In this document: positions 20,602 to 43,000 of the stretch, piece by piece
Layout of the letters: each line of letters opens with the position of its first letter
How positions within the stretch are numbered: the first letter of the stretch is position 1
Assembly: GCF_000215995.1 (NCBI RefSeq)
Contig: NC_015680.1
Coordinates: 1,563,160-1,627,159, forward strand
Direction of reading: 5' to 3'
Source: Pyrococcus yayanosii CH1
GTDB taxonomy: Archaea > Methanobacteriota_B > Thermococci > Thermococcales > Thermococcaceae
Length of the DNA: 64,000 nucleotides
Notes under the pieces: generated by a model
The model's database searches: none
The model's input: the letters and a program-made list of their open reading frames with translations, nothing else
Told to the model about the DNA's origin: nothing
Program-made: the position numbers and the translations under genes

Positions 20602-21006
20602 CTATTCCACGTATTCTGCTTTGATTCCAAGCTTTTTTGCAATCTTCCACTGTTTCTCATCACTTGTTAGAAGACTGCCATATTTCTTTGCCTGGACTAA
20701 ATATAGCGCATCATAAATTGGAATATTCTCACTAATTGATATCTTCATGCCATCCTCAAGGTAATCTTCAAACGGCTCAAAAATTACGACATCCTCTTTG
20801 AGCTTTTTCAAGGCTTCAAGCATTATCCCAGCTTCTTTGTTCGATATTACCTTGTACAGCACATAATGCTTCCAGATGGCGTTTGAGACTTCAGCCAAAG
20901 CCAATGTTAGAGAGTATGGATCATCCAGTAGATATTCTCTAACCTTTTTCCAGTTCTCTTCCCTTAGGATATATTTAGCGAGAGAAGATGCATCAATTAC
21001 TATCAC
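20602..21006 (-). CDS. VapC-type PIN-domain toxin (ribonuclease)
   Basis: 134 residues. MIVIDASSLAKYIL carries the first PIN acid, TLALAEVSNAIWKHY the second conserved Glu, and IPIYDALYLVQAKKYGSLLTSD the third and fourth acids, so the active site looks complete. Mg-dependent RNase inhibited by the antitoxin encoded just upstream, which it overlaps by 14 bases. Intact TA module sitting between rmlC and rmlD. Confidence 0.88.
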   Translation of the reverse strand: MIVIDASSLAKYILREENWKKVREYLLDDPYSLTLALAEVSNAIWKHYVLYKVISNKEAGIMLEALKKLKEDVVIFEPFEDYLEDGMKISISENIPIYDALYLVQAKKYGSLLTSDEKQWKIAKKLGIKAEYVE

Positions 21007-21214
21007 GGTCCTCCCTCACATACTTTCTCGCAGTCCCCTTTTCGGTTTTTGGTAAATTTGCAAGCATTATATCAATTTCCTCCAAGGCCTTCTTTTTCCT
21101 GTATTCCCTAACTTTGGCTTCAATAAATTTCCTAATTTCCTCGCTCCAGTTAATGTCAACCTCTTTCATCTTCTTCTTAAGCTCATGAGGAATTCTGAAG
21201 CTGACAACTTCCAT
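20993..21214 (-). CDS. VapB-type antitoxin
   Basis: 73 residues from the ATG at 21214 (MEVVSFRIPHELKKKMKEVD). N-terminal ribbon-helix-helix DNA-binding part with INWSEEIRKFIEAKVREY, followed by a basic tail that would wrap the toxin. A remnant of a close relative, with EVNWSEEIREF, is at 27552. A dyad just upstream (21227-21242) is the likely operator. Confidence 0.85.
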   Translation of the reverse strand: MEVVSFRIPHELKKKMKEVDINWSEEIRKFIEAKVREYRKKKALEEIDIMLANLPKTEKGTARKYVREDRDSN

Positions 21215-21226
21215 ATACGACACCTG

Positions 21227-21256
21227 AATACGCTATCGTATTACAAATATATAAAC
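21227..21256 (-). promoter_or_regulatory. vapBC promoter and operator dyad
   Basis: AATACG-CTAT-CGTATT is a perfect inverted repeat with 6-base arms at 21227-21242, and the TATA-like ACAAATATATAAAC follows at 21243-21256. The dyad lies between the TATA box and the vapB start, as expected for autorepression by the VapBC complex. Confidence 0.6.
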
Positions 21257-21268
21257 ATTTCTGAGTCC

Positions 21269-21826
21269 CTAAAACAGCTCACCCTTCTCAATCAACTCCC
21301 TCAAAGTTGGCCATTTCCTATCTTTCTCTGAAACTATTGGATCCTCAATGGGCCACTTAATTCCTACGTCTGGATCGTTCCAAATTAAACCCCCTTCATG
21401 ATCTGGAGCATAAACGTTGTCCACCTTGTAGACAACTTCAGCAACATCACTCAGCACTACAAACCCGTGAGCAAAGCCCCTTGGAATGTAGAGCATGTAC
21501 TTGTTATACTCAGATAGAATAACTCCCACATATTTTCCAAAAGTTGGTGAGTTTTTCCTTAAATCCACAGCAACATCATAAATAACTCCCCTAATACAGC
21601 GAACAATCTTGGCTTGAGCGTAAGGCTCGCGCTGAAAGTGCAATCCTCTCAAAACTCCGTACTTTGATTTAGAGTGATTATCCTGGACGAACTCTCCCTT
21701 TATTCCAGCCTTTTCAAAGTCCGGCTTCTTGTACGTCTCCATGAAGAAACCCCTCTCATCCTCGAAAACCTTAGGCTTAATTAAAATCACATCCGGAATC
21801 TCCAACTTTTTGAACTCAAAGGGCAT
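21269..21826 (-). CDS. rmlC: dTDP-4-dehydrorhamnose 3,5-epimerase
   Basis: 185 residues from the ATG at 21826 (MPFEFKKLEIPDVILIKPKV), preceded by AAGGTGGT. Cupin fold with DERGFFMETYKKPDF, RGLHFQ (catalytic histidine), VDLRKNSPTFGK and IPRGFAHGF. Third step of dTDP-L-rhamnose synthesis. It begins only ten bases after the end of the broken vapC, so its ribosome site lies right behind a TA remnant. Minus strand, same direction as rmlA, rmlB and rmlD. Confidence 0.94.
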   Translation of the reverse strand: MPFEFKKLEIPDVILIKPKVFEDERGFFMETYKKPDFEKAGIKGEFVQDNHSKSKYGVLRGLHFQREPYAQAKIVRCIRGVIYDVAVDLRKNSPTFGKYVGVILSEYNKYMLYIPRGFAHGFVVLSDVAEVVYKVDNVYAPDHEGGLIWNDPDVGIKWPIEDPIVSEKDRKWPTLRELIEKGELF

Positions 21827-21836
21827 TTTTACCACC

Positions 21837-22400
21837 TTATGGCACAACTTTAAGAAAATCAACCCGTTTAAAATCCTCATCAAGGGTCGCCAGTGTGTTT
21901 ATCCCATAGTGCTTGCAAGTTATTGCAATTAATGCATCATTGGGTAGGAGTTTGTACTTTTTCATAACTTCCCTCCATTCACTAACCTCTTGATAGTCGG
22001 GCAAGACTACAATATTCCTCTCATCAACTGACCTCCTCCCCGCCCTGAAGGGCGAGGGTTCCAACGAGTTAACCCCTCGCCAGAGGCGGTTCGGTTCGCG
22101 GGCCCATCACCTACTCCCGTTACCAGTTTCGGTTCAGCCCGCAGGCCGGGTCTTCGGCCCGTTACCCCTACCGGCAAACCCGGATTAGGGTTATCGTTTA
22201 GAGGCCACCCCTCAGAGTTTTTGACTGCCAGGAGGCAGTCTTTTGAAAGGACGCTTAACAGCGTCAACCCTCCAACGCTGGAGGGTAACGTGAAACCCCT
22301 CATCTCATCGGGTTATCTTACGGTGGCCTCTTCGAGGCCTTATTACGCTGGCAAGACTTAAAAAGGTTTCGTAAAATATATTTGTATCAACAAATATCAC
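21837..22400 (-). pseudogene. VapC-type PIN toxin gene interrupted by an IS605-derived element
   Basis: The 5' piece starts at GTG 22400 ([17 protein letters not shown], first PIN acid), overlapping the antitoxin stop. It ends near 22345, where a GC-rich structured insertion begins. The 3' piece resumes at about 22027 with ERNIVVLPDYQEVSEWR, LLPNDALIAITCKHYGI and LATLDEDFKRVD, the C-terminal PIN acids. About 50 central residues expected for a PIN domain are missing, so the insertion was accompanied by a deletion. Not functional as a toxin. Confidence 0.8.
22028..22345 (-). mobile_element. non-autonomous IS200/IS605-derived element rich in hairpins (omega-RNA-like)
   Basis: About 318 bases, GC-rich, without a coding frame I can recognise. 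The right end is CTGACCTCCTCCC at 22028 with the hairpin GCCCTgaAGGGC. Internal hairpins are GACTGCC/GGCAGTC (22223-22240), GACGC/GCGTC (22250-22265), ACCCTCC/GGAGGGT (22267-22286) and GGCCTC/GAGGCC (22325-22339). GGCCGGGTCTTCGGCC at 22144-22159 is identical to that in the tnpB remnant at 20159. The end motifs are those of TnpB-type elements, so this is read as a deletion derivative keeping both ends and the guide-RNA scaffold region. Confidence 0.7.
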
Positions 22401-22579
22401 ATTTGGACCTCCTCTTCCAGTTCTTTTAATTCTCTTGCAGAAGCTTTTCCGAATGCTGCATAATACTTAGACACATCTAACTCAATTCTAATTCTGACTT
22501 TTTGGCCATCTTTTAGCTTTACTTTCTTTAAAGGCTTAAAGACACCATTTTCATAGATAGCCTCAACAATGATGGGCAT
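22397..22579 (-). CDS. DUF104-type antitoxin
   Basis: 60 residues from the ATG at 22579 ([20 protein letters not shown]). The [23 protein letters not shown] pattern is diagnostic of DUF104 proteins, which are antitoxins for PIN-domain toxins in hyperthermophilic archaea. The gene ends ATGTGA, overlapping the GTG of the adjoining, now broken vapC. Appears intact, so it may persist as an orphan. A second DUF104 gene is at 63576. Confidence 0.82.
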
Positions 22580-22627
22580 TTCTCTCACCGGATATATCTT
22601 GTTGGGGTCTCCATTTAAATTTCTCGA

Positions 22628-24801: not shown

Positions 24802-25020
24802 TCACTTCCTCAGCTCTCCCTTCATCCGGAGGTACTCTTCCTTACTCAGCGGAAAGTTCTTGGCCGAGGCAAGGAAAGAGTTCACGAGTTTTACCTGCTG
24901 CTTGAAGACATCGTCTGGATTTTCCCTCAGTTTTTTGACATAGAGCTTTATGAAGGCCAATCTTTCAGAAATATCTCTTTTAGAATTGAATCTCAACGCC
25001 GAGCCGTTTCGCGTATTCAT
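24802..25020 (-). CDS. small uncharacterised protein coupled to a nucleotidyltransferase
   Basis: Up to 72 residues; the start is uncertain (ATG at 25020 inside the upstream gene, or a later TTG). The conserved-looking part is ERLAFIKLYVKKLRENPDD, then QQVKLVNSFLASAKNFPLSK, ending GELRK. Charged and helical. It overlaps the 3' end of the nucleotidyltransferase gene in another frame, so the two probably form a pair, as in toxin-antitoxin systems built on MNT-type enzymes. I do not recognise its family. Confidence 0.55.
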   Translation of the reverse strand: MNTRNGSALRFNSKRDISERLAFIKLYVKKLRENPDDVFKQQVKLVNSFLASAKNFPLSKEEYLRMKGELRK

Positions 25021-25561
25021 AGAGCGCCCTCCTATCGATTCTCTCCTTAAACAGCTCGTAGAGGAAGAAAGCATCCTCTACATCCTTGTCGGAGCCTAGG
25101 TAGAGTTTATAAGCTATTTGTAGTTCTATCGGCGATATGTAGATTGTCCTGCCGTTGAACTCAACGGGAATTCTACCATCAATCGCCTCCTTATGGAATT
25201 CATCCTTAGGAAACTTCATCTCCGCGTTCGGGATTATCTCACCCTTTCGAGCCATCCTTATCCCAAGCCCCTCGGCCAGCATTTCATAGAGGCCCTCACA
25301 GTTCTCTGGGTTTAGAAACTCAAAGCCTGACCTTTCCGCATCTTCACACATTCGCATAAATTCGTCCTTTGGAAGAGGCTCGATTACGAAGTCCACATCT
25401 TCAGTACCCCGTGAACGGCCGAGGAGAATCATGACGTACCCGCTAACTATGACGTACCGAGCGTGCTTCTCAACTACGTTCACAACGTCGAGCACGAACT
25501 TGTCTAATTCACTGAGCTCGCGGTTGAGGATTATCTTGTCTTCTCTAATCTCAATGCCCAT
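24980..25561 (-). CDS. AbiEii/MNT-like nucleotidyltransferase domain protein
   Basis: About 193 residues from the ATG at 25561 (GTG at 25570 possible). YVIVSGYVMILLGRSRGTED followed by VDFVIEPL matches the G-x6-G-x2-R-x-T-x-D-x-D pattern of DUF1814/AbiEii-type nucleotidyltransferases, with the two metal aspartates present. IYISPIELQIAYKLYLGSDKDVEDA is typical of the C-terminal half. Such enzymes act as toxins that modify tRNA or as antitoxins. A further TA-like element directly upstream of rmlA. Confidence 0.72.
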   Translation of the reverse strand: MGIEIREDKIILNRELSELDKFVLDVVNVVEKHARYVIVSGYVMILLGRSRGTEDVDFVIEPLPKDEFMRMCEDAERSGFEFLNPENCEGLYEMLAEGLGIRMARKGEIIPNAEMKFPKDEFHKEAIDGRIPVEFNGRTIYISPIELQIAYKLYLGSDKDVEDAFFLYELFKERIDRRALYEYAKRLGVEIQF

Positions 25562-25570
25562 AGGCCTCAC

Positions 25571-25917
25571 CGAATTTTGATCAGCATCCTATTTAGTCCT
25601 TTTGGAGGATGTATCTTAGAGAGTGACGTTTTGCCATCTTAAATTAATCAAGGGTACGGAAATTACACGAGGGTGACACTGCACCGTTGCTGACAATTTT
25701 TGTCACCATTTGACGTCATTTGTTAGGCGACGCATTTTTCTTTTGGTCGACATTCTTAATCATAAGCTCTCGACTGTTTGCGTAAGTTTTTTACGCAAAC
25801 TCTAAACGGAAATGATAATAATATTAGGTATATTATGCGTGGGTATCAAAAATGTATTCATGCTTGGAAAAAATTGTCCTGACAAATAATGTCAGGATAA
25901 AGTGAGCCTTATTAACG
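25571..25917. promoter_or_regulatory. 347-base regulatory gap with several dyads
   Basis: No gene seen. It contains TGACAATTTTTGTCA (25691-25705), TGACGTCA (25711-25718), an inverted repeat with 10-base arms GTTTGCGTAA/TTACGCAAAC (25776-25785 and 25791-25800), a TATA-like GGTATATTATG near 25830-25840 and TGACAAATAATGTCA (25880-25894). A further dyad overlaps the start of the next gene. AT-rich. Confidence 0.6.
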
Positions 25918-25936
25918 TTGATGACGAATAATGTCA
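25880..25936 (+). promoter_or_regulatory. paired operator-like dyads at the start of the coiled-coil gene
   Basis: TGACAAATAATGTCA (25880-25894, with CC/GG extending the arms) and TGACGAATAATGTCA (25922-25936) differ at one base. Their centres are 42 bases apart, four helical turns, so proteins bound to both would lie on the same face of the helix. The second covers the first codons of the gene. Arrangement suggests autoregulation or cooperative repression (inference). Confidence 0.65.
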
Positions 25937-27261
25937 TGGTGTCTAGAATGAGAGACACCTTAAGGCTTATCTCAAGGCTTATTGAGTTGACAAGAAAGGG
26001 CTACATTGAGGATTATGAGAGAGAAGAAGTATCTAAGATATTGAGGGAGCTTAAGGCCGGAGGGTTTACGAGCGAGGAGATCGTGTTTTTAATGAATAGA
26101 GCGTTCAGTGCCTCGTGGGTGAGATCGCTTACGGCAGGCACTAGAAAGGAGAGCGAAAAGCACAAGGAGGCTGTCCTTAAGCTTCTGGTTTGGTTCATAA
26201 TAACATCAGAGAAGGCGGGAGGTATAGGAAATGTTGTACGGCTCCTGCACTACCTTGGCAATCATGAAATCTGCGCAGTAAATGTAATCTCCCTGCTGGA
26301 AGAGGTTGAAGATGGCGGAATCGACATTAACGACCTGATAGAAGTCTTGAGGCTAGCAAACTCGGTGGGGAGCCTTTATGTCCTCAAGCAAGTCCTAGAA
26401 ACTATGAAGGAAGGAGATGAGATTATTCTCACCGACCTTTTACCGCTCCTCAAGGTCGCTCAAGAATATGGTGTCGACGAGGTTGTCAGCCTTATTAAAG
26501 CTAGGAAGAATGTTGAAGAGGAAGTTGAAATGCTCCGCTATGAAGTTGAGATGCTCAAAAAGAGGCGAGATGCCCTAAAGGAAGAAGTTGATGAGCTCAA
26601 GAGGAAAAAGGAATGGATAGCCAAGGAGTACTCTGCTTTAACTCAAAAGTACAGGGAGTTTTCAAATGTCGTGAGCATCGTGAAGGAGCTCGTATTTAAC
26701 AGAAATATCTCCACAAAAACGCTTTATCACCTAGCGAAGATTTTGGAGACTGTCGGCCCGGAAGAGGTCGCTGACATAGCTTTGGATGTGAAAAGGGTGA
26801 GAGAGTTGAGGATAGAGGTTAGGGAACTGGAAGAGAGAAAGAAAAGGCTAGTAAAACAAGTGGAAACGCTTGAAGCTGCAAAGGAAAAGGTCCAAGATGA
26901 GCTCATAAAGATTGGGAGGGAATTTGCAAAGATTTGGATAGAGATTGGCAGGGATTATGGGGAGTTAGTTGACGACATGTTCAAGAAGGCTAAAGAGTAT
27001 ACCTTCACCCTTGGGCTCCTTGAAGCCTTACACACCCTCTTGTATTCCCAAGATGTTGAGACCCTTAGAAGTGTTCCTATATACGTTGATTTCATGTTGT
27101 TAGAGGCCATTGAGAGGCATGTAAAAGCTCTAGGAGAAAATCCTTCTATTACGACGCTTTCCTTTGAGATAAGTGGTAAGCATGAAAATTTTAAGGGCAC
27201 CGTAAGATTATTGACACTGCTTAGACTTGTTAGACAGGCACTGGTCAAGATAAATAGATAA
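25921..27261 (+). CDS. orphan coiled-coil protein
   Basis: 446 residues from the ATG at 25921; later starts at ATG 25936 or 25948 are possible and no good ribosome site is seen. Residues about 1-190 are mixed helical. About 195-250 form a heptad-like coiled coil (EEEVEMLRYEVEMLKKRRDA ...), about 290-340 a second one, and the last 100 residues are globular. No catalytic motif or membrane segment is apparent, and I do not recognise a family. The gene stands alone between the rml/TA region and the second copy of the 333-base repeat, with unusual dyads upstream. It may be a structural or scaffolding protein, or belong to an integrated element. Confidence 0.7.
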   Translation: MTNNVMVSRMRDTLRLISRLIELTRKGYIEDYEREEVSKILRELKAGGFTSEEIVFLMNRAFSASWVRSLTAGTRKESEKHKEAVLKLLVWFIITSEKAGGIGNVVRLLHYLGNHEICAVNVISLLEEVEDGGIDINDLIEVLRLANSVGSLYVLKQVLETMKEGDEIILTDLLPLLKVAQEYGVDEVVSLIKARKNVEEEVEMLRYEVEMLKKRRDALKEEVDELKRKKEWIAKEYSALTQKYREFSNVVSIVKELVFNRNISTKTLYHLAKILETVGPEEVADIALDVKRVRELRIEVRELEERKKRLVKQVETLEAAKEKVQDELIKIGREFAKIWIEIGRDYGELVDDMFKKAKEYTFTLGLLEALHTLLYSQDVETLRSVPIYVDFMLLEAIERHVKALGENPSITTLSFEISGKHENFKGTVRLLTLLRLVRQALVKINR

Positions 27262-41972: not shown

Positions 41973-43000
41973 CCCTTACCCCCCAGCTCCGACTTTAGCC
42001 TCGAACCTGTTTCTATCTCCCTCACTATCCTTCTCAGCACATCCTCATCCAGCCCCTTCTCGGCAAGAATCCTTATTATGTCTTTCCCATCCTCCTCACC
42101 AAAGAACTTATCGAGAATCCTGAAGATGAGCGCAAGCACCTTTTCAAGTATGACAACCCACGCGCCGCTCTCGATAAACACATACAAGAGGCCAACGAAA
42201 AGCACATAGTGAAGGATATACTCCCTTCTTACGACCCTCCTGACTAGGTACGTGCCAGTGGAGTAAGGATTAAAGTCGGCATGGTGAGCCTCATCAGCCA
42301 TAAACCTCTTCTCCGGCAATGATTCAAGGAAGTTCTCAATGAAGCGACGATTATAAGGGAAGAGGGCGTTTGAGAAGATGTCCGGGTCTGAGAAGAGATA
42401 TAAGCGACCCTCCCCATATTCAAACACAGCCCCCACAGCATAAGAACCGAAGGAGTTGCCAAGAAGGGAAGCATTTGACGTCATGAGTATTGGCGTGCCC
42501 CCAAAAACCGCCCTCGGCCTCTCCGTGACAACGAAATCAACACCCGCAGCAAGCTCAGGAGCCACCCAAACGGCGAGTGGCCTCGTGGAGTTCCCAAGGC
42601 AGACGGGACTAATTATCTGAGCCCTCGATATGCTACTCTCAATTCCGAGCTCCGTAAAGAGATCGCGGATTATCCGAAAATCATCCGCCGCAAGTATTAC
42701 AACACCACCTCCCTCCAAGAACGCCCTCAACTCCCCTACCTCCGCAGGCGTAAAGGGCACATTAGGGCCAATAACCACGAGAACACCAGATTCCTGACCA
42801 AGACCAATTGAATCATAAGTCGTGAGAACTGGGACTATTTCCCCCCTCGAATAGAGAAGCTTAGCAAAGCTTGACGCACCCCTAGGCCCAGTGTTGAGAT
42901 AACTGTAATCGGCGGAACTCTTCATCACAGGAATCGAAGCAGGCATCAAAAGAAAGCCAACCCCAATAATTAGCAGAATGACATAAAAAGCCCTATTCAT
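41930..43000 (-). CDS. DUF4350-type membrane protein
   Basis: 356 residues. The N-terminal membrane anchor (about 4-24) is followed by an extracytoplasmic alpha/beta domain (YLNTGPRGASSFAKLLYSRG ... VLVVIGPNVPFTPAEV) typical of DUF4350. A second membrane segment near 265-290 and a charged cytoplasmic tail follow. It overlaps the DUF4129 gene by four bases and the MoxR gene by 43. Part of the MoxR/DUF58 system; precise role unknown. Confidence 0.8.
   Translation of the reverse strand: MNRAFYVILLIIGVGFLLMPASIPVMKSSADYSYLNTGPRGASSFAKLLYSRGEIVPVLTTYDSIGLGQESGVLVVIGPNVPFTPAEVGELRAFLEGGGVVILAADDFRIIRDLFTELGIESSISRAQIISPVCLGNSTRPLAVWVAPELAAGVDFVVTERPRAVFGGTPILMTSNASLLGNSFGSYAVGAVFEYGEGRLYLFSDPDIFSNALFPYNRRFIENFLESLPEKRFMADEAHHADFNPYSTGTYLVRRVVRREYILHYVLFVGLLYVFIESGAWVVILEKVLALIFRILDKFFGEEDGKDIIRILAEKGLDEDVLRRIVREIETGSRLKSELGGKGWMVRSSSSISRLR

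Follow-up and report, generated by a model that had tools for sequence, protein, structure and literature searches.

What might three near-identical palindromes do in front of a gene that has no intact relative? The genome is a single contig of 1,716,818 bases, and the window, by which we mean the whole 64,000-base stretch that was analysed, spans its positions 1563160-1627159. The palindromes (dyads) lie in a 350-bp intergenic region with 37% G+C, against 47% for the window, between a divergent nucleotidyltransferase-like gene (24980-25570, minus strand; assigned by inspection) and a gene for a helical protein, inside a rhamnose/polysaccharide gene cluster. Scattered among the rhamnose genes, at 20602-22588, are PIN-domain (VapC-like) toxin genes, one of which is apparently truncated, and an AF2212-like antitoxin gene.

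A first-pass annotation had reported related 15-mers at 25691, 25880 and 25922, and all three are present at these coordinates. Dyad 1, TGACAATTTTTGTCA (25691-25705), matches TGACA-W5-TGTCA exactly. Dyad 2 has the core TGACAAATAATGTCA (25880-25894) and extends to a 21-bp palindrome with 8-bp arms, TCCTGACA-AATAA-TGTCAGGA (25877-25897). Dyad 3, TGACGAATAATGTCA (25922-25936), lies 42 bp from dyad 2 in the predicted initiation region. No strand is assigned to any of them. Dyads 2 and 3 are identical at 14 of 15 bases, centre included, and all three are recovered as a single direct-repeat family with spacings of 189 and 42. A further element that had been counted into the array, TGACGTCA (25711), is not noteworthy because it also occurs at 42476 and 61160. 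The centre spacings of 189 and 42 bp correspond to 18.0 and 4.0 helical turns at 10.5 bp per turn, so that the three dyads share one face of the helix. Helical phase had been claimed for two dyads, which stands for the 42-bp pair, but it actually holds for all three; the agreement of the distant dyad was spotted post hoc and has roughly one-in-ten odds of arising alone.

The dyads, their uniqueness, their phasing and their position can be read directly from the DNA, and the array is a real, non-random pattern. TGACN7GTCA occurs at 18 places genome-wide, three of them within the dyad region, and if 18 sites were placed at random, any three of them would share a 246-bp stretch with a probability of ~5e-5. 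With at most one mismatch to TGACA-W5-TGTCA, the dyads are the sole sites in the 1.717-Mb genome; the next 27 places, at two mismatches, are scattered, and TGACRAATAATGTCA has only two occurrences at up to one mismatch. Dinucleotide shuffling of the region yielded two TGACN7GTCA sites in 0 of 3000 shuffles. Since the dyads are the only sites within one mismatch, the shuffles gave none and the clustering is so improbable, the genome search proposed in the first-pass annotation rules out random occurrence at the expected rate. The exact TGACRAATAATGTCA motif was found in none of 93 other Thermococcaceae genomes, where one-mismatch matches were isolated, and the 42-bp arrangement of dyads 2 and 3 was found in none of 114 other genomes of the phylum (115 including this one); a reversed control pattern, scanned alongside, occurred in two genomes. 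More than 100 scattered matches were obtained both for TGACN7GTCA pairs in viral contigs and for the 15-mer in all genomes; the 15-mer matches listed come from unrelated bacteria and one Thorarchaeota bin, with no Thermococcales among them and one copy per stretch, as chance predicts.

Promoter elements were scored with a hand-made BRE/TATA matrix, with percentiles relative to the window. The two best-scoring elements of the region, both on the plus strand, are the candidates P1, CGGAAATGATAATAAT (25807-25822; 99.9th percentile; predicted start ~25845), and the lower-scoring P2, AAGTGAGCCTTATTAA (25900-25915; 99.4th percentile; predicted start ~25938). P2 sits between dyads 2 and 3 and would yield a ten-base leader starting at GGTG, an arrangement considered natural for the group, whereas P1 as the promoter would place both dyads within the leader rather than around the promoter. 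The open reading frame has in-frame starts at TTG 25918, ATG 25921 and ATG 25948. No ribosome-binding motif was seen before the first two; GGTG at 25938-25941 (plus strand) stands six bases, a normal distance, ahead of ATG 25948, which is the better-supported start. Dyad 3, described earlier as covering the start codon, does overlap part of ATG 25921, but with ATG 25948 as the start it would lie at the initiation region and not in the gene. The sequence GGTGTCT-AGAATGAG-AGACACC (25938-25959) is a potential hairpin holding the ribosome-binding motif and the start codon; behind it, within the coding sequence, comes a tandem 12-nt repeat, CTTAAGGCTTAT/CTCAAGGCTTAT (stretch to 25982).

An operator array typically consists of repeated palindromes that surround a core promoter on one face of the helix, and control of this kind is already known. 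Here, at least two near-identical palindromes stand beside one promoter candidate beyond chance expectation. It is therefore likely that the TGACA-W5-TGTCA dyads form an operator array in the DNA, at which a dimeric protein binds to control the orphan gene, and the operator-type array proposed in the first-pass annotation is still the best reading, not a chance pattern. Protein binding, the promoter and repression are what we infer from this arrangement. Dyad 2 just upstream and dyad 3 just downstream of the BRE/TATA-like element, four turns apart, could each be occupied by a dimer, and the bound dimers would block TBP/TFB or the polymerase, so that the array would act as a repressor switch. 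Dyad 1 lies eighteen turns upstream of dyad 2, on the same side of the helix, and would be an auxiliary operator for looping or wrapping. Occlusion of TBP/TFB binding is an established mode of archaeal repression (PMC2995911).

The dyads were also considered as control sites of the divergent gene and rejected, since the motif is missing at 21 orthologue loci; that gene has matches in 31 of 94 family genomes and the dyads do not travel along with it. The sole TGACN7GTCA at those 21 loci is unrelated and lies inside a coding region (L069). Because the dyad pair is absent from these loci and from the 114 genomes, in which the searches showed no intact copy of the orphan gene, the sites go with that gene, and the regulator looks dedicated because good sites exist at the orphan locus only.

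The orphan gene itself (25948-27261, plus strand) encodes 437 residues from ATG 25948, or 446 from ATG 25921, and is both the presumed target and the candidate source of the regulator. No intact homologue was found in 114 other genomes of the phylum, and no relative in genome, viral and plasmid collections. To that extent the gene is an orphan, as first described, but broken remnants exist in two other Pyrococcus genomes: a frame-broken one at the rhamnose cluster of G006 and a 37-residue fragment with 50% identity in G005, both in surroundings without dyads. A match in G089 was set aside as a coiled-coil match. These remnants, and a third-position G+C resembling that of two neighbouring rhamnose genes, suggest that the gene is probably real, lineage-restricted and being lost elsewhere. 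In the rhamnose-cluster counterpart of G006 (L015:8462-9786), a gene for a wHTH protein overlaps a second gene beside the orphan-gene remnant, and by inspection the pair resembles an AbiE-type nucleotidyltransferase pair.

The orphan protein is predicted to be all-helical with two coiled-coil stretches. Its matches listed in Pfam, NCBIfam and PHROGs are generic coiled-coil matches (residues ~190-260 and ~285-340), below the cut-off where one is given, and include no known DNA-binding domain. Modelling gave weak structures, with pLDDT of 50 and 66. Residues 1-80 are basic (pI 9.5) and contain TSEEIVFLMNRAFSASWVRSLTAG, modelled with low confidence as two short helices, a possible helix-turn-helix; a structure search with the N-terminal model gave weak helical-repeat matches alone, none with E < 0.001.

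Which protein would occupy the dyads? The first-pass annotation had found the array unexplained by any gene in the window. No recognised DNA-binding family indeed adjoins it, but the orphan protein is a candidate and, in our view, the most likely binder, although this assignment is the weakest step of the explanation. Autoregulation is the first candidate because the sites occur only at the orphan locus and the intact gene in only one genome. Such co-occurrence is as expected for a dedicated autoregulator, as far as one genome can suggest, and we consider autoregulation by the orphan protein plausible but somewhat short of probable. The protein would repress its own gene through the basic N-terminal region, with the coiled coils oligomerising it.

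The main rival to the orphan protein as the binder is an unlinked regulator of the Lrp/AsnC (feast/famine) type, dimers of which would sit on 15-bp A/T-centred palindromes and wrap the promoter. Such a regulator is rather unlikely. The architecture fits, with 15-bp sites, 5-bp arms, a 5-bp all-A/T centre and three phased copies; Ss-LrpB recognises a 15-bp palindromic consensus, TTGCAAAATTTGCAA, at three sites of its own gene (PMC4046817), and 11 proteins of this genome carry the domain. Reported neighbouring Lrp sites are, however, two or three turns apart (PMC2995911), against four here. Most Lrp members autoregulate, yet none of the 11 Lrp loci has a site within two mismatches, which is weak counter-evidence as natural sites can be degenerate. 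Furthermore, the dyad array lacks the wide distribution that Lrp genes have in the order.

The dyads could instead act in RNA, as part of a long leader transcribed from P1 in which the ribosome-binding motif is held in a hairpin and translation is controlled. The higher score of the upstream candidate P1 would allow such a leader, at 37 C folding of the 25840-25990 RNA scores strongly (z = -5.7), and the 25938-25959 hairpin would put GGUG in the stem and AUG in the loop. Even so, we regard an RNA leader as improbable. At 85 C and above, the prediction leaves most of the structure open, which makes such a leader less likely: between 75 and 85 C everything melts but the hairpin of dyad 2, for which ~-0.3 kcal/mol remains at 95 C, and such organisms grow near these temperatures. 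A good RNA fold is also what any palindromic DNA would give, and dyad 1 has the same motif despite lying upstream of both promoter candidates. No Rfam family was matched, and no homologues were found for covariation.

Less probable still, the region could be what is left of an integrated element's origin or partition site, with the dyads as iterons or centromere sites. Iterons are closely spaced direct repeats, normally looked for beside an initiator gene, whereas the dyads are just three, unequally spaced at 189 and 42 bp. Among the open reading frames at 20-34 kb of the window, no initiator-like, replication, integration or partition gene was recognised, and no homologue was found in plasmids or viral contigs. 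The plasmid iterons offered as an option in the first-pass annotation are thus not supported. The palindrome density is nevertheless unusual, with four inverted repeats with arms of at least 7 bp where 0.2 are expected, and a coiled-coil protein beside an array of sites does resemble plasmid KfrA (PMC7783346). Least credible of all is chance clustering in A/T-rich intergenic DNA: the 37% G+C would favour it and a generic search for at least three 4-bp-arm dyads of any one kind succeeds in ~1% of shuffles, but the specific motif never arose twice in 3000 shuffles, no other genomic copy lies within one mismatch and the pair is missing from 114 other genomes.

The same region contains a palindrome stronger than the dyads that was missing from the first-pass annotation, GTTTGCGTAAGTTTTTTACGCAAAC (25776-25800, no strand), with 10-bp arms, GTTTGCGTAA-GTTTT-TTACGCAAAC. 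It is species-specific, with essentially none in 93 relatives apart from one single-mismatch match to a relaxed pattern (G016). This genome has further copies at 558103, 695517 and 681004 (L047, L048 and L049), two with one mismatch and one with three. Two copies lie ~400-450 bp downstream, in the crRNA sense, of the last repeat of a CRISPR array, in a block of 30 bases that the two trailers share unchanged although they have otherwise diverged, and the three-mismatch copy precedes a truncated open reading frame. The conserved asymmetric centre (GTTTTT) suggests a putative binding site. At L049:1600-1670 (genome ~681100), repeats resembling ATGGTAAAC/TATAGTAAAC form an array that directly precedes a 22-codon remnant, MAKKPALHKPSKENAKTKLLK, and has the look of operators whose gene has been lost.

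Only a few archaeal operators have been matched to their regulator, and this array is unusually clean, with three near-identical phased sites and one target. As an operator, it would serve as an uncomplicated model for testing repression in a hyperthermophile, and could bring to light a family of DNA-binding proteins without a known relative. Its significance is modest, and would be greater if the orphan protein were the binder or the CRISPR-linked palindrome functional; the second palindrome would matter if proven to link CRISPR arrays with a chromosomal gene. There is a slim chance that both hold. The product of the orphan gene would then be a new, lineage-restricted autorepressor of archaea that binds DNA and has coiled coils, KfrA-like in its working though unrelated, and through the palindrome that also stands downstream of two CRISPR arrays the gene and the CRISPR loci would answer to one common factor.

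Known systems resemble the array in different respects. The operator of Tar (TK0271), also from Thermococcales, has similar half-sites in a palindrome directly upstream of BRE/TATA, but the dyads do not fit its TGGACA-N8-TGTCCA pattern, as both half-site and spacer differ, and Tar activates aromatic amino-acid operons. Lrp/AsnC arrays such as that of Ss-LrpB at its own gene share with the dyads the A/T-centred palindrome of 13-15 bp (PMC4046817, PMC2995911), the number of three sites, helical phasing and an archaeal promoter; they differ in the half-site, TTGCA in Ss-LrpB against TGACA, while the dyads have spacings of 4.0 and 18.0 turns and no adjacent Lrp gene. For KfrA, an autorepressor of broad-host-range plasmids, no sequence relation to the orphan protein was found, no KfrA-family DNA-binding domain is recognisable among the Pfam, NCBIfam and PHROGs matches listed, the orphan gene is chromosomal, and for KfrA of RA3 the operator consists of 9-bp repeats, set around a bacterial promoter, unlike the dyads. 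Despite these differences, the orphan protein has the long coiled-coil tail, and the logic proposed for it would be that of KfrA: a DNA-binding N-terminus joined to a long coiled coil, acting at its own promoter on an operator that is made of repeats and occurs nowhere else in the replicon.
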